A stretch of 64,000 nucleotides of DNA from Natronoglycomyces albus (GTDB lineage: Bacteria; Actinomycetota; Actinomycetes; Mycobacteriales; Micromonosporaceae), in contig NZ_CP070496.1 in NCBI RefSeq assembly GCF_016925535.1, forward strand, positions 1,736,001 to 1,800,000, written 5' to 3'. Below, in pieces: positions 1,483 to 41,716 of this stretch. The position numbers and the translations under genes are program-made. Position 1 is the stretch's first letter. Every line of letters starts with the position of its first letter. The notes beneath the pieces are model-generated. The model did not search any database and had not been told where the DNA came from. It saw only the letters and a list, made by a program, of their open reading frames with translations.

Positions 1483-2325
1483 CTATGCGGTGGGTCGGAT
1501 GCCGAGCATGACTCGGGCGTCTGGAACCGACATGGCGGGCCGCTGGGCCAAGGCCGCGGCCTCGGCGGCTCGGGCCACCAATTGTTCATTGCCAGTCACT
1601 GGCTGCCGGCGAGCAAAAGACACCGTGTCCTCCATGCCCACGCGCAGATGGCCGCCAGCGGCGAGCGTACTGAGCATGACGGGAAGGGTGGTACGCCCGA
1701 TTCCTGTGGCGGCGAACGTGGCATCGGGCGGAAGGTGTCGGCGCACCGCGTCCACGAAGTGGATCACCGTGGCCGCATTGCCGGGAGCCCCGCCTGGTAC
1801 GCCGAGCACGAAGTCGACGTGCACATGACCACCGTAGGGCAGCCCGTGCTGGTCAAGCAGACGTTCCAAGGACGCCAGGTGTGCCAGGTCGAAGATCTCG
1901 TACTCGGGCACGATGCGTCTATCTCTCATGCGGCGGTGCAGTTCGACGATGAAGTCCCACCGATTGGAAAAGACCGCGTCACCGAAGTTGACGGTGCCCA
2001 TAGTGCAAGAGGCCATGTCCGGTTGGGCCTCCAACACGCGCATCCGGTCCTCTTCGCTATCGGTGACCGCGCCACCTGAGGACAGTTGCACAATGAGGTT
2101 GGTCGCCTCTGACACGCCTGCCACGGCTTCCTTGGCGCGGCCAAGGTCCAGCGTTGGCCGCGCCTTGTCGTCGCGTAGATGGATGTGGATGACTGCCGCT
2201 CCCGATTTTTCGCAAGCGACGGCAGTCGAAACCAGCTCTTCAACGGTGACGGGCAGTTGCGGGAAGTCGCTTTTATCCAGTTCGGCTCCGGTAGGAGCGA
2301 CGGTGATGAGAGTTGTGGCGCCCAT
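1483..2325 (-). CDS. kce: 3-keto-5-aminohexanoate cleavage enzyme
   Basis: Kce (BKACE/DUF849 family) condenses 3-keto-5-aminohexanoate with acetyl-CoA to give acetoacetate and 3-aminobutyryl-CoA. The protein is 280 aa. Family landmarks seen: ITVAPTGAELDKSD at the N-terminus, the metal-site HIHLRDD near residue 50, QLSSGG in the middle, and YGGHVHVDFVLGVPGG further on. The ATG at 2325 is preferred because AAGGAAGG lies just before it; a longer upstream frame has no family similarity. It starts 7 nt after the kamA stop, and its ribosome site overlaps that stop (TAAGGAAGGTATG), so translation is probably coupled. With kamA, kdd, kamD, kamE and kal alongside, the lysine role is well supported. 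Confidence 0.9.
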   Translation of the reverse strand: MGATTLITVAPTGAELDKSDFPQLPVTVEELVSTAVACEKSGAAVIHIHLRDDKARPTLDLGRAKEAVAGVSEATNLIVQLSSGGAVTDSEEDRMRVLEAQPDMASCTMGTVNFGDAVFSNRWDFIVELHRRMRDRRIVPEYEIFDLAHLASLERLLDQHGLPYGGHVHVDFVLGVPGGAPGNAATVIHFVDAVRRHLPPDATFAATGIGRTTLPVMLSTLAAGGHLRVGMEDTVSFARRQPVTGNEQLVARAAEAAALAQRPAMSVPDARVMLGIRPTA

Positions 2326-2332
2326 ACCTTCC

Positions 2333-3799
2333 TTACTCCCGTGCCTGGCGGGCGGCCGCGGTACGCGACTTTTCGGCCGCCGCGTGGCCGGCCTCGGCGA
2401 CCTGCTCGGGTGGGTGCTTGGCACGCCACCATTCCTGCCCGGCTTCGGGCAGGGTGTCTATTGGGTCGTAGTAGGGGTAGTAACGCGTCAGCGCGTCCGG
2501 GTCCTCCGCCTCGATGGACGTGCGGTAGTTCTTCGTCCAATACGAGATGCCCTGCTCCCGGTCGTAGTCCGATAGCTGGTGTACCCAGCGCTTGCCGACA
2601 AACGGCACATCGCAGATGATGCGTGGCGTCGCGTATCCGGGCAGGTAGCCCATAATCGCCGTTTGTAGGGCTTGCGCCTGCGCCACCGAGGTGCGCCAGT
2701 GCTCGGCGTTGGGGATCATGTCGCACATATAGAAGTAGTAGGGCAGGATGTGTGCCTCGCCTTGCAGCGCGAAACAGAGATCCAGCAAATCAGCTGGGGT
2801 GTCGTTGACGCCGCGCATGAGCACACCCTGGTTGCGCACATCGCGTACGCCTGCCTCCAACATGGCCTCGGCCGCGGCGGCCACTGCTGGAGTCACCGAG
2901 TTGACGTGGTTGACGTGAGTGTGGATGGCCAGACTGACGCCACGTTCCCGGGCGAGTGAAGCAACGCGGCCCATACCGTCGACGACGTCGCTTTGCAACC
3001 AGTGCTGTGGCAGGCCCATGAGCGCTTTGGTCGCCAGCCGAATGTCACGGATCGAATCGATGTCCAGCAGCTGGGTCAGGAAGTTTTCCAGGTTCTTCCA
3101 CGGGACGTTGGCCACGTCCCCACCCGAGACGACGACGTCGCGCACTTCGGGGTGTTTTCTCAGGTAGGCAAGCATGTCGTCGTAGCGGTTGGTGGGCTTG
3201 CCCTTGAGCTTGAGCTTGTCGATGAGCGGGGTGGAGTTTCCGACGAGGTCCATGCGGGTGCAGTGCCCGCAGTATTGCGGGCAGGTTGAGAGCATTTCCG
3301 CGAGCACCTTGGTGGGGTAGCGGTGCGTAAGGCCTTCGGCCACCCACATGTCGTGTTCGTGGAGCGAATCGCGCGCCGAGAACGGGTGGGATGGCCAGTC
3401 TGAGCGGCGGTCGGAAAACACCGGCAGCATGTAGCGGCGTACTGGGTCGGCCCGGAAAGCCTCGGTCCAGGAGCCCGGTGTGGTGTCTTCGATGGTGGGA
3501 ACCATCGTGTTGAGCATTTGCGGGGGCAGGAGCATGGACATTGTCGCCCGCTGTTCCATGTCCTGGGCGAGGTCGTCGTAGAAGTCCTCGCTAAGTAGGT
3601 CGCCGACGATGTTGCGAAGCTGGCGGATGTTCTTCACACAGTTGACCCGCTGCCACTGGGCTGAAGCCCACTGGTCGGCGGTGATGTCACGCCAGCCTGG
3701 AAACCGCTGCCAGTCGGGCTCGACCAGTTCGCGTCGACGGTACTGGTAGGGCTGTTCGATCGCAGCGGGGCCTTGGCTGTCAACCGGTAGGTCCGTCAC
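2333..3799 (-). CDS. kamA: Lysine 2,3-aminomutase (divergent KamA)
   Basis: Radical-SAM, PLP-dependent enzyme that moves the alpha-amino group of L-lysine to the beta carbon, first step of the pathway. The [4Fe-4S]/SAM motif is C173-PQY-C177-GH-C180. An aspartate follows YYFYMC (YMCDMIPN), matching the substrate-binding Asp293 of clostridial KamA, and another sits in IICDVPFVGKRW, matching Asp330. The clostridial PLP segment DAPGGGGK is replaced by DVPFVGK, one residue shorter, so this is a diverged subtype. The GTG at 3799 is chosen because GGAGGT lies 6 nt upstream; an ATG ten codons earlier lacks such a site. Length 488 aa, longer than the roughly 416 aa of clostridial KamA. First gene of the leftward kamA-kce operon. 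Confidence 0.88.
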   Translation of the reverse strand: MTDLPVDSQGPAAIEQPYQYRRRELVEPDWQRFPGWRDITADQWASAQWQRVNCVKNIRQLRNIVGDLLSEDFYDDLAQDMEQRATMSMLLPPQMLNTMVPTIEDTTPGSWTEAFRADPVRRYMLPVFSDRRSDWPSHPFSARDSLHEHDMWVAEGLTHRYPTKVLAEMLSTCPQYCGHCTRMDLVGNSTPLIDKLKLKGKPTNRYDDMLAYLRKHPEVRDVVVSGGDVANVPWKNLENFLTQLLDIDSIRDIRLATKALMGLPQHWLQSDVVDGMGRVASLARERGVSLAIHTHVNHVNSVTPAVAAAAEAMLEAGVRDVRNQGVLMRGVNDTPADLLDLCFALQGEAHILPYYFYMCDMIPNAEHWRTSVAQAQALQTAIMGYLPGYATPRIICDVPFVGKRWVHQLSDYDREQGISYWTKNYRTSIEAEDPDALTRYYPYYDPIDTLPEAGQEWWRAKHPPEQVAEAGHAAAEKSRTAAARQARE

Positions 3800-3978
3800 T
3801 GAGCTACCTCCATCACGTGCAACCTCCATGTTCGGGGTGGGTTCACAGAAAGTTTATTATGTGACTAAAGTCCTTCTGTTACTTAGCTTACCCAAAGGGG
3901 CTGCCCTAGCGTAGCTCCCGCATACTGAGATCGACCACCCGAACGATGAAAAATGATGACGAGGCGAAGGGCGCAAAT
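3800..3978. promoter_or_regulatory. Divergent promoter region of the kam cluster with palindrome
   Basis: This AT-richer stretch separates kamA (leftward) from kdd (rightward) and must hold both promoters. A 22-bp dyad, TCACA (3843-3847) and TGTGA (3860-3864) separated by 12 bp, lies within AT-rich sequence; on the minus strand it overlaps CATAAT, a good -10 candidate for kamA. A regulator could therefore control both arms from one site. No regulator gene is found inside the cluster. Regulation is inference from position and symmetry. Confidence 0.5.
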
Positions 3979-5013
3979 ATGGCGAAAACCTCACCAGTGG
4001 GCCTACATCGGGTGATCTCACCCACCGGGCATTTGCCGCAAGCGGCCACCCAGTTGGACAATGCACGCGACATTGGCGAGGATGAAGTCCGCATCCGCGT
4101 CGAGCGCCTGAACCTCGACGCGGCCTCCTACCGCCAGATGCACACCGAGCATTCCGGCGACGGTGAAGCCATTCGCGACCAGGTTCGGCGCATCATCGAC
4201 GAGCGCGGCAAGATGCATAACCCGGTCACCGGTTCCGGCGGCATGCTTATTGGCACCGTCGATGAAGTCGGAGCGGCCAGTCCCCTTGGCCTTAAAGTGG
4301 GGCAGAAGGTGGCCACGCTGGTCTCGCTGACGCTCACTCCCTTGCGCATTGACGACGCTTTGGAGAACTGGGACGGTCTGTCCGAACAGATCCCCACCTC
4401 CGGTCACGCGATCCTGTTCGCCCGCTCCATTGCCGCGGTCTTGCCCGAAAGCCTCAATGAAGATCTGGCACTGGCCGTGTTTGACGTGTGTGGGGCGCCG
4501 GCTTTGACCCGCCGAGTCGTGGAACGCAAAAACGCCGCCACAGTGGCTGTTCTTGGTGCGGCTGGCAAATCCGGCTCGCTATCCTTGGCCGCCGCGCGCG
4601 ATGCCGGAGCCGCCACCTTGCTCGGGGTGGTCCGTAACGAAGATGAAGCCCGTCAACTGGCGCACACGGGCCTCGCCGACCACATCGTCATCAGCGACGC
4701 CACCGACCCCGTCGCGCTCTCCCAGTCCGTCACCGAGGTCACCGGCCCAGTCGAGGTGACAGTCGTGTGCGTCGACGTGCCCGGTTGTGAACACGGGGCC
4801 ATCCTCGCCACCGCCGAAGGCGGCACGGTCATTTTCTTTTCCATGGCCACGTCGTTTCCCGCCGCCGCGCTGGGCGCGGAGGGCTTGGCCGCCGACGTGG
4901 AGATGCTCATCGGCAATGGCTACGTTCCAGGCCACGCCGACTACGCATTGCACCTGGTGGCCACGAACGACGCCATCAAGCACCACTTTGAGGCGCGACT
5001 GCACGCTCATTGA
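3979..5013 (+). CDS. kdd: L-erythro-3,5-diaminohexanoate dehydrogenase
   Basis: NAD-dependent oxidative deamination of 3,5-diaminohexanoate to 3-keto-5-aminohexanoate, between the 5,6-aminomutase and Kce. The protein is 344 aa. The N-terminus GLHRVISPTGHLPQAATQLDN resembles known Kdd starts. A Rossmann segment VAVLGAAGKSGSLSLAAARDAG lies near residue 190. The ATG at 3979 is preferred over an in-frame ATG at 3946 because GAAGGG precedes it and family N-termini match. First gene of the rightward arm; 140 nt separate it from kamD. Confidence 0.9.
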   Translation: MAKTSPVGLHRVISPTGHLPQAATQLDNARDIGEDEVRIRVERLNLDAASYRQMHTEHSGDGEAIRDQVRRIIDERGKMHNPVTGSGGMLIGTVDEVGAASPLGLKVGQKVATLVSLTLTPLRIDDALENWDGLSEQIPTSGHAILFARSIAAVLPESLNEDLALAVFDVCGAPALTRRVVERKNAATVAVLGAAGKSGSLSLAAARDAGAATLLGVVRNEDEARQLAHTGLADHIVISDATDPVALSQSVTEVTGPVEVTVVCVDVPGCEHGAILATAEGGTVIFFSMATSFPAAALGAEGLAADVEMLIGNGYVPGHADYALHLVATNDAIKHHFEARLHAH

Positions 5014-5153
5014 GTCGCCCGGCGTCGCGCCTGCTCGACAACAGACTCGCAACGGCAAGCGTTTGCCGCATGTAGCCGCATACGAAGCTAAGCCCGACCA
5101 CACCCCGGAACCGGCAAGCGAGCACCGACAACGAACCGCGAGGAGAAAAACAC

Positions 5154-6731
5154 GTGACGTTCAAGCCGCTGATCCCACTGGACCCGGCACAAGTCGACCG
5201 GGCCCGCCGCTTGGCCGCCCAAGCGGGCCAACCCGTCGTCGACATGGCCCGCAGCCACACAACCGTCTCAGTCGAACGCGCCACATTGCGTTTGGCGGGC
5301 CTGACCGGAGCCGACCCCGACGGCATCCCCTGGGTTAACCGCCTCGTCGACTCCATTAGCGAACAAGTGGGCATCGAACACGGCGTGGCGCTGCCGGTCT
5401 ACCACGCCCTCAACAGCGGTGCCTATAAAGACCTCACCGACCTCTCCCACGCCGCCGCCGCTGGAGCCGTCACCTTCGCGATCCCCACCGGGGAGGAAGC
5501 TACGTCCGCTCGGGCCGCCGCCCGCGCCTCAGTCGGCATCGGCATCGACCGCATCGACCAGCAACGCCGCGACCGCGACCGCATGATCGCCGACATCGGA
5601 GACCCCGAACAGCGGCCCTGGATCTACCTCATCGTCGCCACCGGCGACATCTACGAAGACATCAAACAAGCCCAAGCCGCAGCCCGAGCGGGGGCAGACA
5701 TCATCGCCGTCATCCGCTCCACCGGCCAATCCCTCCTCGACTACGTGCCCGAAGGCGCCACCCGCGAAGGATTCGCCGGAACCTACGCCACCGGCGAAAA
5801 CTTCCGCCTCATGCGAAATGCCCTTGACGAGACCTCCCGCGAAGTCGGACGCTACGTGCGGCTATGCAACTACGCATCAGGCCTGTGCATGCCCGAAATG
5901 GCCGCCCTCGCCGGCATCAATCGGCTGGACATGATGCTCAACGACTGCATGTACGGCATCTTGTTTCGCGACATCAACCCCATCCGAACCTTTGTCGACC
6001 AGCGGTTCTCCCGCCAAGTACACGCCCGAGCAGGCATCATCATCAACACCGGCGAAGACAACTACCTCACCACCGCCGACGCGGTCGAAGCCGCGCACAC
6101 CGTCACCGTGTCCCAACTACTCAACGAGTTCTTCGCCCACGAAGCCGGATTGCCCGACGAACTACTCGGGCTAGGACACGCCTTCGAAATCAACCCCGAC
6201 CTACCCGAATCGTTTCGCATGGAGCTGGCCCACGCCCTCTTGGCTCGCCAACTGTTCCCCGACGCGCCGCTTAAATGGATGCCGCCGACCAAACACATGA
6301 CCGGAGACGTCTTCCGAGGAAACCTTCTCGACGGGTTCTTCAACCTCGCCGGGGTCATGACCGGCCAATCAATTCTCCTAGTCGGCATGATGACCGAAGC
6401 CGTCGTCACCCCGTGGCTATCAGACCGCGACATCGCCTTGCAAAACGTGCGCTACGTACTAAACTCCTGCGGCAATCTCACCGAAGACTTCCACCCACCA
6501 GCCGACGGTTTTATCGCCAAACGCGCCCGCGAGGTTCTCAACGAAGCTAACGACCTACTCTCCGACATCGTCGACGATGGACTACTCAACGCCATCGCCG
6601 ACGGAACATTCGGCATCATGAAACGCCCCGCAGATGGAGGCCGCGGCCTCGCCGGAGTGTCCAAACGCAGCGAAGACTACTACAACCCCGCCAGCGAAAT
6701 GCTGGACGAAGGCATGAACGGAGGCCAGTAA
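5154..6731 (+). CDS. kamD: Beta-lysine 5,6-aminomutase alpha subunit
   Basis: Large subunit of the adenosylcobalamin/PLP enzyme that converts beta-lysine to 3,5-diaminohexanoate. The 525 aa length is typical. Recognisable stretches include GIEHGVALPVYHALNSGAYKD, IIAVIRSTGQSLLDYVPEGAT, MNDCMYGILFRDIN-like sequence (seen as LNDCMYGILFRDINPIRT) and the FEINPDLPES region. This subunit forms the TIM barrel; cobalamin and PLP contacts come mainly from KamE. The start is GTG at 5154 with AGGAG upstream. Its TAA overlaps the kamE ATG (TAATG), indicating coupled translation. Confidence 0.95.
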   Translation: MTFKPLIPLDPAQVDRARRLAAQAGQPVVDMARSHTTVSVERATLRLAGLTGADPDGIPWVNRLVDSISEQVGIEHGVALPVYHALNSGAYKDLTDLSHAAAAGAVTFAIPTGEEATSARAAARASVGIGIDRIDQQRRDRDRMIADIGDPEQRPWIYLIVATGDIYEDIKQAQAAARAGADIIAVIRSTGQSLLDYVPEGATREGFAGTYATGENFRLMRNALDETSREVGRYVRLCNYASGLCMPEMAALAGINRLDMMLNDCMYGILFRDINPIRTFVDQRFSRQVHARAGIIINTGEDNYLTTADAVEAAHTVTVSQLLNEFFAHEAGLPDELLGLGHAFEINPDLPESFRMELAHALLARQLFPDAPLKWMPPTKHMTGDVFRGNLLDGFFNLAGVMTGQSILLVGMMTEAVVTPWLSDRDIALQNVRYVLNSCGNLTEDFHPPADGFIAKRAREVLNEANDLLSDIVDDGLLNAIADGTFGIMKRPADGGRGLAGVSKRSEDYYNPASEMLDEGMNGGQ

Positions 6732-7519
6732 TGTCGAACATCATTCGCCCCTATGGGGACACCACGGGTGACGGCATGGTGCAGCTGTCGTTCACCCTGC
6801 CGGTACCCCACGACAAACGCGCCGAAGGCGCGGCGCTACAACTGGCCAACAAAATGGGACTTGACGGCGTCATGGTTGTCCACTCTCATCAAATGGGCGA
6901 CACCCACACCTTCTTCGTGGTTTACGGATCCGCCAACCACCTGGTCAACATGGACGAGGTCAAAGTAGTCGAACGCGACTATCCCCTGCTCAACCCCAAA
7001 GAAGTCAACGAAATCGTCAAGCAGCGCCTCGGCCGCAAACTATGCGTCGTCGGCGCGTGTATCGGCACCGACGCCCACACCGTCGGCATCGACGCAATCC
7101 TCAATATCAAAGGCATAGCCGGAGAAAAAGGCCTGGAGTACTACCGAGAACTGCGCGTCATCAACATGGGCGCCCAAGTGCCCGTACCAGACCTGGTCAA
7201 CCGTGCCGTCGAAGAGGAAGCCGACGCCGTGCTCGTCAGCCAAGTCGTCACCCAACGCGACGCTCACCTTCACAACGCCAAGGAAATGTCGGCCGCCTTC
7301 CGTGAAGCCCTCCCACCACAGAAGCGGCCACTGCTGGTCGTCGGTGGCCCCCGCTTCGATGAGAACGATGCCGACAAACTCGGCGTCGACCGTATCTTCG
7401 CCCGCCGCACCACCCCCGGAGACGTCGCCTCATACCTGGTACACCGCATCGTCCCCTCCGAGACCGCACCAGCCGAACAGCAGAAGTCTGAGTCGCAACG
7501 AGAAGGATCAGTCGTATGA
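6731..7519 (+). CDS. kamE: Beta-lysine 5,6-aminomutase beta subunit, B12- and PLP-binding
   Basis: Small subunit with the Rossmann cobalamin-binding fold. The base-off/His-on motif is DAHTVG (residues 114-119), with His116 as predicted lower cobalt ligand. Lys127, 11 residues later in LNIKG, corresponds to the lysine (Lys144 of the Clostridium sticklandii enzyme) that forms the internal aldimine with PLP. Length 262 aa. Start overlaps the kamD stop and the stop overlaps the kal start (ATGA). Both cofactor residues being intact argues for an active enzyme. Confidence 0.95.
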   Translation: MSNIIRPYGDTTGDGMVQLSFTLPVPHDKRAEGAALQLANKMGLDGVMVVHSHQMGDTHTFFVVYGSANHLVNMDEVKVVERDYPLLNPKEVNEIVKQRLGRKLCVVGACIGTDAHTVGIDAILNIKGIAGEKGLEYYRELRVINMGAQVPVPDLVNRAVEEEADAVLVSQVVTQRDAHLHNAKEMSAAFREALPPQKRPLLVVGGPRFDENDADKLGVDRIFARRTTPGDVASYLVHRIVPSETAPAEQQKSESQREGSVV

Positions 7520-7899
7520 CCAACCACGATGGAACCTGCGTGACCCACCGCCGCTACATCTCCTACGACCACGCCCACTACGGCGGAAACCTGGTCGACG
7601 GAGCCTACGCGCTGGCAATGTTTGGCGACGTGGCCACCGATATCTGTATCCAAACCGATGGGGACGAAGGACTCTTCGCCTCCTACTCGGACGTGCAGTT
7701 CAAAGCCCCGATCCGAGCTGGGGACTTCGTGGAGGCCACTGGCGTCATCACGCGCACGGGCAACCGTAGCCGCACCATCGACTTCACTTTGTCCATTGTG
7801 TGCCGCGCCAATCCTGAACGCGGAGACTCGGCCGCCGACGTCCTGGAGGAGCCGATCGTGGCCACCACGGCTACCGGAACGGTCGTGGTCCCGGCTTGA
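7516..7899 (+). CDS. kal: 3-aminobutyryl-CoA ammonia-lyase
   Basis: Hotdog-fold enzyme that removes ammonia from L-3-aminobutyryl-CoA to give crotonyl-CoA, last dedicated step here. The 127 aa length and the run RRYISYDHAHYGGNLVDGAYALAMFGDVATD fit the family; ASYSDVQFKAPIRAGDFVE is the usual hotdog strand region. It overlaps kamE by 4 nt (ATGA) and the reactivase by 4 nt (TTGA). Identity rests on the family pattern plus its place in the operon. Confidence 0.88.
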   Translation: MTNHDGTCVTHRRYISYDHAHYGGNLVDGAYALAMFGDVATDICIQTDGDEGLFASYSDVQFKAPIRAGDFVEATGVITRTGNRSRTIDFTLSIVCRANPERGDSAADVLEEPIVATTATGTVVVPA

Positions 7900-9308
7900 G
7901 CACCCCAAAGGACATCTTCGTGTGCGTTGACGTCGGCTCGACGTACACGAAAGCCGCCGCCGTCGACGTGGACACGGGGGAACTGCTGGCGACCGCGTCC
8001 ACCCAAACCACGTTGGCCACCGATGTCATGGATGGTTTGCGCCACGTCGCCGGCGAGGTCTCGGCCGAGGCGAGGGTGGCGGACACACTCGTGTGTTCCT
8101 CGGCTGGTGGCGGTCTCAAACTCGGCGTCATCGGCAACGAACCACTCGTGACCGCCCGGGCGGCCTATCGTGCCGGCCTCTCGGCCGGAGCGCGCGTGGC
8201 TCACGTATGTGCCGGGCAGCTCGACGCGGACGACTTCGCCACGTTGGCCACCGCCGAGCCCGACGTCATCTTGCTCGCCGGAGGCACCAATGGTGGCGAT
8301 GCCTCAGTCCTGCTAGAACACACAGATGCCTTGGCCGCGGCAACTAAGAACCATGCGCAACTGCGCGTTCCCGTCGTCGTGGCCGGAAACGCCGACGTGG
8401 CCGACGAAGTCCGGACCAAACTTCAGACCGCTGGACTTCCGGTGCGCTGTGTGGACAACGTCCTTCCCAAGATCGGACACCTCACTCCGGGCCCAGCCCG
8501 CCTGGCGCTGCGCGAGACGTTCTTGCAGCACGTGATCGCGGGCAAAGAACTCTCAGCGGGAGATGACTTCGTCTCGCTGGTTCGAGCGGCCACTCCCGAC
8601 GCGGTCCTGGCTGGAGTGGAGTTGCTGGCCGACACCGCCAATACAGACCTACTGGTTGTCGACGTGGGCGGTGCTACCACCGACGTCTACTCAGTACTGA
8701 CCCCCGACGCGGAACTGGAAGGTCCCCGCGCCGAAGTAGCCGGAACCGCATGGCGTTCCCGCACTGTCGAAGGCGACCTGGGAGTACGCCACACCGCCAC
8801 CGGCATCGTGGAAGCCGCCCAGGACGAGGACCTGCTGCAGCCGGACGAAGCCGATACTCTCACCACCGCGGCGCGGTACCGATACGACAACCCCGAATAC
8901 CGGGCCGACACCGATGCCGAACGCGCGGTTGACGCCCGACTAACCTCGTTGGCCGCCGGGATCGCCGTTCGCCGACATGCGCGAGGCGAACGCATTGGTG
9001 GCCCCAGCGAACCACTGCGCGGAAGTAAGGACCTAGCCGCCGTAGACCTGGTAATCGGGTCCGGGGGAGTACTGCGCGGCAACCCGGTCGCGGCACTGGG
9101 ATGGCTGCGCTCCTCAGTCTGTAACGACACCGCCGGAGGTTTCCGGCCCGCCAGAGACGCAAAGGTGGCCGTCGACGCCAATTACGTGCTCGCCCCAGCT
9201 GGCCTCATCGCCACCGCAGGCCATACCGAAACGGCCCAACGCCTGCTACACCATGAACGTGGAAGCTGGAACGACTACGGCAGCTTCCAGGAAAAGCCAG
9301 TCACCTAA
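7896..9308 (+). CDS. MutL/ASKHA-type reactivase of B12 aminomutase
   Basis: Member of the glutamate-mutase MutL family (not the DNA-repair MutL), with the actin-like ATPase fold. Two phosphate loops are visible: CVDVGSTYTKAAAVD near the N-terminus and VVDVGGATTDVYSVL near residue 250. Such proteins are proposed to restore adenosylcobalamin aminomutases by releasing damaged cofactor. The TTG start at 7896 overlaps the kal stop (TTGA); no better start exists before the first conserved motif. Last gene of the rightward operon, 470 aa. Reactivase role for KamDE is inferred from family and position. Confidence 0.82.
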   Translation: MSTPKDIFVCVDVGSTYTKAAAVDVDTGELLATASTQTTLATDVMDGLRHVAGEVSAEARVADTLVCSSAGGGLKLGVIGNEPLVTARAAYRAGLSAGARVAHVCAGQLDADDFATLATAEPDVILLAGGTNGGDASVLLEHTDALAAATKNHAQLRVPVVVAGNADVADEVRTKLQTAGLPVRCVDNVLPKIGHLTPGPARLALRETFLQHVIAGKELSAGDDFVSLVRAATPDAVLAGVELLADTANTDLLVVDVGGATTDVYSVLTPDAELEGPRAEVAGTAWRSRTVEGDLGVRHTATGIVEAAQDEDLLQPDEADTLTTAARYRYDNPEYRADTDAERAVDARLTSLAAGIAVRRHARGERIGGPSEPLRGSKDLAAVDLVIGSGGVLRGNPVAALGWLRSSVCNDTAGGFRPARDAKVAVDANYVLAPAGLIATAGHTETAQRLLHHERGSWNDYGSFQEKPVT

Positions 9309-32044: not shown

Positions 32045-33340
32045 TTACTGCTGAAAGGGAAACCGATCCGCAAAAGCGGGCTTCAAGTGGTCGAGCCAAA
32101 TCGCGTTTTCGTCAAACTTCGCGAAGAATGGGCGCCCGACCAGGTCAGGGTCTCTTGCCTGCAACATTCGCAGCGCGAAGATTTTCTCGCCGTTGACCTC
32201 GGTTACGCCATCGACGACGACTTTGCCAGGCGTGGCCGACATCGACGGTCCGCGGACGGTCCGGCACAGTCCGGAGACCTGAGCCAGCGCATCCCGGTAG
32301 ATTTCCCACGCCTTGTACAGCGGTACTGAGAAATAGTCCTGCGGTCCTGTGTCACGCTCGACGAACATGTAGTACGGAATCATGCCCATCTTGTGCTGGG
32401 TCCGCCACATGCCAGCCCACTGCTCGGCAGTGTCGTTGATCGTGCGGATCAAAGGAGCCTGGGTGCGGATTGTCGCCCCGGTGTTCAGGATTCGGCGTAC
32501 CGCCTCCTGAACCAGGTCGGACTCCATTTCCCGATGATGGGAGAAGTGCGCCATGAACGCAAGGTTGCGCCCGGACTTGACGACTCTTTCAAACAGCCGC
32601 AGCGTGTCATCGGCATCGGGATCGGTCACGAATCGCTGAGGCCAGTAAGCCAGAGCCTTCGAACCGATTCGGATGGACTCAATGTGGTCCATCTCCAGCA
32701 ATGGATCGATGTACTTGCTCAGAACAGTCTCACCCATGATCATGGGGTCGCCGCCAGTGAGCAGAACGCTTGTCACCTCGGGGTGATTGCGGACGTAGCC
32801 GGTGAGCCGCTCGACATCGTTCGAGGCGATCTTCAGCTCGCTAATACCCACGAACTGGGCCCAACGGAAACAGTAGGTGCAGTACGCGTGGCAGGTCTGT
32901 CCCTGCTGGGGGAAGAACAGCACAGTCTCTTTGTATTTGTGCTGCAAACCTTCGACGGTTTCGTCTTCGAACTTGGGTAGGTTCAACTCTTGCTGCCCTG
33001 CCGGGTGCGGGTTGAGTTTGAACCGGATCTCGTTGGCCGTGCCAGTGATCTCGGCTTTGGGCGCGTCAGTCTTGATGAGGTGGGCGATACGGTCGACATC
33101 CTCAGCCGGGAGCATGTCCTCCTGGGGGAAGACGAGCCGGAACATGGGGTCTTCGAGGGCGTTGTCCCAGTCGATGAGCTCATCGAGGACATACTCGTTT
33201 GTGCGAAAAGGCAACACCGAAGCTACCGCACGTGTGCGGAGCCTTTGCTCCTCCGTCAGTTTCGCCCGCTGCAAGAGTTCATCCAGGTGACGGATGGTGT
33301 ATGCGCGGAACCGCCTACCAGTGTTTTCTGGGGTACTCAT
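32045..33340 (-). CDS. KamA-family radical SAM aminomutase, substrate uncertain
   Basis: 431-aa PLP/radical-SAM protein. The cluster motif is C150-HAY-C154-TY-C157. The LAM-like core continues through SVLLTGGDPMIM and the C-terminal PGKVVVDG, whose Lys may bind PLP. The two lysine-recognising Asp positions of KamA are not conserved: the counterpart of YQCD reads MFVERD with a shifted Asp, and the counterpart of VVDAP reads TVRGP. A substrate other than lysine is therefore likely; glutamate 2,3-aminomutase is one option, EpmB is less likely on length. The ATG at 33340 has AAAGGAGGT upstream. Stands alone. Confidence 0.8.
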   Translation of the reverse strand: MSTPENTGRRFRAYTIRHLDELLQRAKLTEEQRLRTRAVASVLPFRTNEYVLDELIDWDNALEDPMFRLVFPQEDMLPAEDVDRIAHLIKTDAPKAEITGTANEIRFKLNPHPAGQQELNLPKFEDETVEGLQHKYKETVLFFPQQGQTCHAYCTYCFRWAQFVGISELKIASNDVERLTGYVRNHPEVTSVLLTGGDPMIMGETVLSKYIDPLLEMDHIESIRIGSKALAYWPQRFVTDPDADDTLRLFERVVKSGRNLAFMAHFSHHREMESDLVQEAVRRILNTGATIRTQAPLIRTINDTAEQWAGMWRTQHKMGMIPYYMFVERDTGPQDYFSVPLYKAWEIYRDALAQVSGLCRTVRGPSMSATPGKVVVDGVTEVNGEKIFALRMLQARDPDLVGRPFFAKFDENAIWLDHLKPAFADRFPFQQ

Positions 33341-33648
33341 GGCGGATTCGACCTCCTTTACGGTGCATCGTTGTTGTCGGGCAATTTGTTGGCAAGGCGT
33401 GGGTGGCACGCCTCATCAGGATGTTCACCGCCAAAGACGATCGTTGTTCCCGATGCCGACGGCTCTGTCGGAATCATGCCAAAGGCGGTACCAGAGACAG
33501 GGGCTACGCCCGTCTCCCACCCACCTAGACCACGTTTTGTGAGGTCGCATCGGTGTGAAGGACGACTGCGTGTACCCCTGTCTCGAAGGTCCCGCCCATA
33601 TGCCAGTAAAACTGCTGGGTATGTAGTTTTCTCAGGTATCTATCAACC
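33341..33648. other. Intergenic region between KamA-like and osmC-like genes
   Basis: 308 bp with no credible gene. It must hold the promoter of the KamA-like gene and the end of the OsmC unit, both read leftwards. No clear terminator hairpin seen. Confidence 0.4.
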
Positions 33649-36333: not shown

Positions 36334-41424
<5,091 letters not shown>

Positions 41425-41596
41425 ACCCACACACACTCTTGTGTGTGGCGCATGTGATCACCGCAGCAAACACAACACACACGCACGCACACTATACGAT
41501 TCTGAAACAACACAGAACACACCAGTCTGCCGCACCACGTCCTCCACCAACAGGAGAACGTGAGTGCGAGACATAAAAATAGTTGTTTCACCGTTT

Positions 41597-41716
41597 TGCT
41601 TGGTGGCGATAGCGGGAAGGCTACACCCGGACCCATACCGAACCCGGTCGTTACGTTTCCCAGCGCCGATGGTACTGCACCCGAGAGGGTGTGGGAGACT
41701 AGGACACCGCCAAGCA
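41597..41716 (+). rRNA. rrf: 5S ribosomal RNA
   Basis: About 120 nt. Termini pair (GCTTGGTGG with CCGCCAAGC). Internal landmarks CCCATACCGAACCCGG and AGCGCCGATGGTACTGCA are diagnostic. Last gene of the rRNA operon. Confidence 0.95.

Follow-up and report, generated by a model that had tools for sequence, protein, structure and literature searches.

A stand-alone KamA-family radical SAM protein of Natronoglycomyces albus as a candidate glutamate 2,3-aminomutase, with an unlinked IdnL3-like gene in the same genome

A KamA-family gene of Natronoglycomyces albus, found in a stretch of 64,000 nucleotides (the window; contig NZ_CP070496.1, positions 1,736,001 to 1,800,000), probably codes for an IdnL4-type glutamate 2,3-aminomutase, a radical SAM/PLP enzyme that stands alone. 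A two-step pathway to 3-aminobutyrate, in which an unlinked IdnL3-like enzyme takes the second step, is proposed more tentatively. The chemistry is known; the subfamily is separate and its genomic setting is new. We know of no enzymatic activity for any member of this family, and literature searches found no paper on its stand-alone members. We infer the substrate, the product, and the coupling of the KamA-like and IdnL3-like genes.

The gene is intact: it opens with an ATG at 33340, its stop codon ends at 32045, and it has 431 codons plus the stop (Table 1). The genome of this organism (G000; 4.01 Mb, 99.93% complete) carries exactly two KamA-type genes (E ≤ 0.001), this one and that at 2333-3829, as expected from the original prediction, which had called ours the second KamA of the genome. 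The two proteins are 26% identical over 310 aligned positions. The other gene, on the minus strand, is of the lysine 2,3-aminomutase (LAM) type and belongs to a lysine-degradation type locus (window 1483-9308), where it adjoins genes resembling kce, kdd, kamD/kamE, and a reactivase (named by eye). Among the ORFs adjacent to the gene studied here, no acetyltransferase partner was recognisable by eye, in line with the same prediction. A complete rRNA operon (16S, 23S, 5S) is located at 36334-41715 of the window on the plus strand. In the Glycomyces loci L003, L004, L007, and L008, a 16S gene is also found upstream of the KamA-like gene and divergent from it, which suggests that the gene and the rRNA operon are in conserved synteny.

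Table 1. Positions of the KamA-like gene, its sequence features, and rhizobial homologs
Feature	Position	Strand	Basis
KamA-family radical SAM/PLP gene, candidate stand-alone glutamate 2,3-aminomutase	32045..33340	minus	translation, 431 aa
Shine-Dalgarno-like AAAGGAGG, upstream of the ATG of the KamA-like gene	33352..33359	minus	sequence inspection
Radical SAM CxxxCxxC, C150/C154/C157 of CHAYCTYC	32870..32893	minus	invariant in 35/35 representatives, common to LAM
R159, directly after the radical SAM motif	32864-32866	minus	invariant in 35/35 representatives
R329-D330-T331-G332, R329 at the LAM Asp293 place	32345..32356	minus	ungapped 2a5h alignment; invariant in 35/35
R363-GPSMSATPG-K373, K373 the presumed PLP lysine counterpart	32222..32254	minus	translation and family alignment
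Rhizobial plasmid KamA homologs	L101:5974-7116; L102:5731-6873		Arg at the LAM Asp293 position

The AlphaFold2 model of the window protein (mean pLDDT 88.4, pTM 0.88; 36 aligned sequences) had LAM (KamA/AblA; 2a5h) as its top Foldseek match, with an E value of 1.9e-16. Superposition on 2a5h by VIA-align gave Z 31.6 (325 aligned, rmsd 3.3, 24% identity), and the next entry reached Z 13.3. Judging from the cysteines, the PLP lysine, the carboxylate Arg, and the modelled fold, all of which resemble those of LAM, the protein appears to be a KamA-fold radical SAM/PLP 2,3-aminomutase. The CHAYCTYC motif and a C-terminal PGK, on which the original prediction had relied, were both found in the translation. 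Ninety positions are identical in all 35 family representatives compared, including C150, C154, C157, R159, R329, D330, T331, G332, R360, R363, S368, and K373. With Arg134 of LAM as the carboxylate-binding residue and Lys337 as its PLP lysine, the counterparts here are presumably R159 and K373, respectively. Unlike LAM, the family has one extra residue after C-F-R.

The window protein lacks both Asp residues with which LAM contacts the side chain of lysine. In the phmmer alignment with 2a5h (C. subterminale LAM), Arg329 of MFVERD is placed without gaps on chain residue 293, the Asp of PYYIYQCD; the first lysine-contacting Asp is indeed replaced at MFVERD, as had been proposed. The adjacent Glu328 varies (Ala in L089 and L143). 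Asp330 of LAM, which we take to be the second lysine-contacting residue, corresponds to Ser366 when the phmmer register is extended ungapped to the PLP lysine, and to Met367 in a MAFFT alignment with actinobacterial LAMs. Residues 364-368 are G-P-S/V-M/L-S in all 35 representatives and include no acid, so the loss of the second Asp still stands. Its earlier placement at TVRGP was rejected on register: Arg363 aligns with an Arg of the actinobacterial LAMs, so TVRGP does not represent a change at the lysine site.

In the NCBIfam search, neither the window protein nor the LAM-type protein of the window reached any cut-off. Their scores for TIGR00238 (KamA family) were 153 and 158 bits, respectively, against a cut-off of 199, which is not informative here since the LAM-type protein also misses it. 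For TIGR03820 (lysine 2,3-aminomutase; cut-off 525), they were 116 and only 162 bits. The window protein scored 92 bits for TIGR04468 (arginine 2,3-aminomutase; cut-off 600) and 110 bits for TIGR03821 (EpmB; cut-off 369). The clostridial glutamate 2,3-aminomutase has the same presumed reaction but, compared by its NCBIfam model TIGR04368, belongs to a separate subfamily (84 bits against a cut-off of 650). In that enzyme, which Ruzicka and Frey reportedly described in 2007, Lys and Asn stand in place of the two LAM Asp residues; a basic residue therefore occupies the first Asp site in both proteins, Lys there and Arg329 here. The rhizobial plasmid homologs L101 and L102 likewise carry Arg where LAM has Asp293 (PYYLFQGR), but they are about 30-36% identical to the window protein, and their neighbours are ATP-grasp-like, proB-like kinase, and ectoine synthase genes.

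The family to which the window protein belongs is actinobacterial and large, and it stays below every NCBIfam cut-off. At least 584 stretches in genome contigs encode relatives, of which the best 80 are 69-83% identical and near full-length; these come from Glycomyces, Nonomuraea, Actinomadura, Nocardiopsis, Thermobifida, and others, six of the 80 being named Nocardiopsis. More distant members (about 50-62% identity) are found on plasmids and chromosomes, several of them beside NRPS or PKS genes.

The glutamate reading is drawn from macrolactam gene clusters. According to the excerpted text of the incednine report, feeding shows β-glutamate to be an intermediate, IdnL3 was shown to decarboxylate β-glutamate to (S)-3-aminobutyrate, and IdnL1 activates the product; IdnL4 is presumed to convert L-glutamate to β-glutamate, and disruption of idnL4 confirms its involvement, while in vitro, as far as the excerpt goes, IdnL4 gave no activity (PMC11284099). 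For pretilactam, an excerpted table gives as consecutive entries a carrier of 82 aa, AMP ligases of 529 and 507 aa, an acyltransferase of 308 aa, a PLP enzyme of 419 aa, a glutamate 2,3-aminomutase of 450 aa, and a P450 of 395 aa (PMC6631532). Relatives of the window protein that adjoin IdnL3-like genes, near full length and 51-67% identical to it, share one tree and the same invariant residues with it. Of known systems, the presumed aminomutases of the incednine, pretilactam, and micromonolactam clusters come closest; members of the expected cluster type stood in for IdnL4 itself in all of these comparisons.

IdnL3-, IdnL1-, IdnL7-, PKS-, NRPS-, and MurL-like neighbours were sought by tblastn at 30 loci and at the best 80 loci. 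Codon-based gene calls on the GC-rich L132, L136, L137, L142, and L100 missed the family gene, and tblastn was used instead. In nine of the 30 loci viewed singly, an IdnL3-like PLP enzyme gene lies 1.2-1.4 kb or less from the family gene, on the same strand in L137, L140, L141, L142, L143, L144, L145, and L147 and on the opposite strand in L098 (L141 and L142 belong to the same genus). IdnL1-like ligases are nearby in L140, L142, L145, and L147. Both ligases, an ACP, and a PKS are present in L140, L142, and L145, and the best-preserved clusters, with IdnL1- and IdnL7-like genes and a PKS, have the incednine-type macrolactam layout. The best PDB match of the IdnL1-like ligases was 5jjq (783 bits for L140, 682 bits for L147) and that of the second L140 ligase was 6akd; we take these entries to be IdnL1 and IdnL7, respectively. 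The L140 run consists of a P450-like protein (395 aa, by eye), the family member (464 aa), a PLP enzyme (418 aa), ligases (514 and 545 aa), and a carrier (82 aa), similar in order and sizes to the pretilactam table.

In contrast to these clusters, the window copy is chromosomal and alone, with no IdnL3 gene next door, and falls in a separate clade. The genome contains a single IdnL3-like gene (E ≤ 1e-10; 49% identity) at C1:2602771-2603976, on the same contig at a distance of about 833 kb; no IdnL1-type ligase was found in it, the best match being 33%. The earlier statement that the gene stands alone therefore applies to the locus, but perhaps not to the genome. Among the best 80 of at least 584 loci, the flanks (≤6 kb, shorter at contig ends) gave no match above 150 bits to any of the six neighbour types. 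No neighbours conserved across orders were found among the loci compared. An OsmC-like gene occurs in 12 Glycomyces-type loci, and many other loci have PlsX-, ArgS-, and ABC-transporter-like genes (by eye); this recurrence is probably plain synteny.

Other settings were observed among the more distant relatives. Family members in L094, L095, L135, and L136 lie beside NRPS genes, with no IdnL3-like gene in flanks of about 8-10 kb; these are candidates for direct use of β-glutamate by an NRPS. In L133 (7911-13774) and L134, from one genus, the order is amidase, KamA-like, MurL, and MurD. The MurL (UDP-MurNAc-L-Ala-L-Glu epimerase) scores below its cut-off, and the run is another glutamate-related setting, possibly for a modified peptidoglycan or a peptide. 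A Rhodococcus plasmid cluster (L099:3023-17269) contains KamA-like, cupin, SidA-type N-hydroxylase, class I tRNA-ligase-like, saccharopine-dehydrogenase-like, luciferase-like monooxygenase, and ATP-grasp genes; it looks like genes for a hydrazine-type (N-N bond) natural product, for which a β-amino acid input is possible.

In a 51-row tree, the window protein is in a 25-row clade (support 100/98) and far from the LAM rows (100/100); support is weak for the branches that separate the deeper clades, and the branches of L099 and L100 are long. The phylogenetic check thus did not place the protein with lysine enzymes, and residues and tree agree with the original prediction that it is not one. For 24 of the 25 rows, no IdnL3-like gene is present in the flanks examined, some of only about 1.5 kb. 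The exception, L147, encodes a protein 67% identical to the window protein and adjoins IdnL3/IdnL1-like genes. The cluster-type members form a separate clade of eight rows (96/95), six of which adjoin an IdnL3-like gene, L095 and L096 being those that do not. In the IdnL3 tree, the stand-alone IdnL3-like proteins and that of L098 form a 27-row group (100/98). The IdnL3 of L147 is outside this group and joins the seven remaining IdnL3s of the cluster type on an unstarred branch (93/80). At L147, an aminomutase of the stand-alone type apparently works with partners of the cluster type, which argues for the same activity in both clades.

Unlinked pairs of the two genes recur widely. In a class sample of 394 genomes, the family was found in 50 (E ≤ 1e-60) and an IdnL3-like gene in 55 (>360 bits): 43 genomes had both, seven only the family, 12 only the IdnL3-like gene, and 332 neither (by genus 23, 1, 2, and 112, respectively; n = 138). 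In the seven family-only genomes, the copies all fall outside the stand-alone clade (L132-L136, L138, and L139; L134 and L136 placed by identity). Every genome with a stand-alone-type copy, G000 included, also has an IdnL3-like gene (37/37; identity ≥67%, L147's genome excluded, clade judged by identity where there was no tree row), and the two genes are on different contigs or hundreds of kb apart on one contig. In the order of G406 (probably Streptosporangiales; 249 genomes, E ≤ 1e-60), the family occurs in 214 genomes and the IdnL3-like gene in 227, with both in 212, the family only in two, the IdnL3-like gene only in 15, and neither in 20; unlisted misses were obtained by subtraction, and the lower-scoring IdnL3-like G433, G514, G515, G594, and G624 (E 1e-64 to 1e-88) were scored as having the gene. 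The two family-only genomes are G539, with a distant-type copy, and G638, a 90% complete genome with a stand-alone-type copy. Among 41 relatives of G000, seven have both genes, one the family only, one the IdnL3-like gene only, and 32 neither. A Fisher test was run on the order sample, but co-occurrence p-values are only descriptive because related genomes are not independent; shared ancestry inflates the counts. The IdnL3-like gene is found without the family in 12 of 55 genomes in the class sample and 15 of 227 in the order.

It should be mentioned that the IdnL3 homologs of g64 (probably Streptomyces; about 40-44%, 204-289 bits) were left out of the strong co-occurrence count, as the five members tested form a separate clade; counting them would weaken the association in that genus. 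Cluster-type and stand-alone IdnL3s (seven sequences with the short L144 omitted, and 27 of the stand-alone clade with L098 among them) have 71 invariant columns in common, of which 23 are absent from the five g64 sequences.

In 12 of 16 loci, the stand-alone IdnL3-like gene has a divergent LysR-like gene (by eye) next to it; one of these 12 loci, L190, is from a genome without the window-protein family. In L150, the LysR-like gene (474-1394) is divergent from the IdnL3-like gene (1495-2730), and a conserved element lies between them in related genomes. Of 19 genomes, 17 have the LysR-type element GCTTGT-N3..5-ATG within 250 bases upstream of the IdnL3-like gene. None of the 19 has it upstream of the KamA-like gene, and shared regulation was rejected. 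The best PDB matches of the IdnL3-like protein are aspartate aminotransferases, so that transamination is another possible activity for it.

As expected from family knowledge, a [4Fe-4S] cluster on Cys150, Cys154, and Cys157 would cleave SAM, and the resulting 5'-deoxyadenosyl radical would attack L-glutamate held as a PLP aldimine, with Lys373 as the PLP lysine. Shift of the amino group from C2 to C3 would yield β-glutamate. Arg159 would bind the α-carboxylate, and Arg329, where LAM has Asp293, that of the side chain. The unlinked IdnL3-like PLP enzyme might then decarboxylate β-glutamate to 3-aminobutyrate. Conversion of glutamate to β-glutamate, which the original prediction had offered as a guess, is the best-supported activity through the IdnL4-type relatives.

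β-Glutamate might instead accumulate as a compatible solute under salt stress, the IdnL3-like gene being unrelated or disposing of it. We consider this somewhat unlikely, and it is not exclusive with the aminomutase reading. Excerpted sources report β-glutamate in Nocardiopsis halophila (PMC1224877) and list Nocardiopsis, the genus named for six of the best 80 loci, as a β-glutamate maker (PMC5884947); in methanogens, the former excerpt states, an aminomutase route to β-glutamate was ruled out by NMR. The flanks of the best 80 loci, free of the partner genes sought, would also suit a solute. On the other hand, the presence of an IdnL3-like gene in all 37 genomes of the class sample with stand-alone-type copies suggests further metabolism, so that β-glutamate may be an intermediate and not an end product. 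Many carriers (Nonomuraea, Actinomadura, and Thermobifida) are not typical halophiles. Riboswitch control was also rejected, since Rfam at gathering thresholds gave rRNA only in 11 loci. The IdnL3-like gene points to 3-aminobutyrate, with an osmolyte role possible. The osmolyte ABAGG of Micromonospora was considered as a 3-aminobutyrate derivative and rejected; the excerpted source describes an anthranilate derivative (PMC10513789).

Action on another acidic or polar amino acid, such as aspartate or 2-aminoadipate, from which the macrolactam-type members would have changed to glutamate, is improbable in our view. Arg329 would suit any carboxylate side chain, and the clusters are varied (NRPS without IdnL3, the hydrazine-type Rhodococcus cluster, the MurL-MurD run, type III PKS). 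The substrate may differ across the family, given the NRPS-linked members and the cluster-type L095 and L096 without an IdnL3-like gene. However, Arg159, the R329-D330-T331-G332 stretch, Arg360, Arg363, Ser368, and Lys373 are invariant across these contexts, and L147 of the stand-alone clade adjoins IdnL3/IdnL1-like genes. A drifted lysine 2,3-aminomutase or EpmB-like enzyme, suggested by the KamA fold and the similarity to the LAM-type protein, is very improbable in view of the non-acidic Asp sites, the distance from the LAM rows, the low EpmB score, and the LAM-type gene already present in the genome.

With glutamate 2,3-aminomutase as the preferred activity, the label 'lysine 2,3-aminomutase', which most plasmid-borne members carry, is probably wrong for the family. 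Such a lone KamA-like gene may be the sign of an overlooked route to unusual amino acids, since a partner gene usually co-occurs and no antibiotic cluster was seen beside it. We can imagine, with some reserve, a dispersed two-gene pathway from L-glutamate via β-glutamate to (S)-3-aminobutyrate as ordinary metabolism outside antibiotic clusters, in most of one actinobacterial order (probably Streptosporangiales) and in Glycomyces-like relatives, with the IdnL3-like step probably LysR-controlled; macrolactam clusters might have drawn their starter-unit enzymes from it. The excerpted literature on bacterial β-glutamate names no biosynthetic gene. If the reading is true, the family would supply candidate genes for the β-glutamate reported in Nocardiopsis and further homologs to try in the in vitro assay in which IdnL4 gave no activity, and 3-aminobutyrate would be predicted in genomes without macrolactam clusters.
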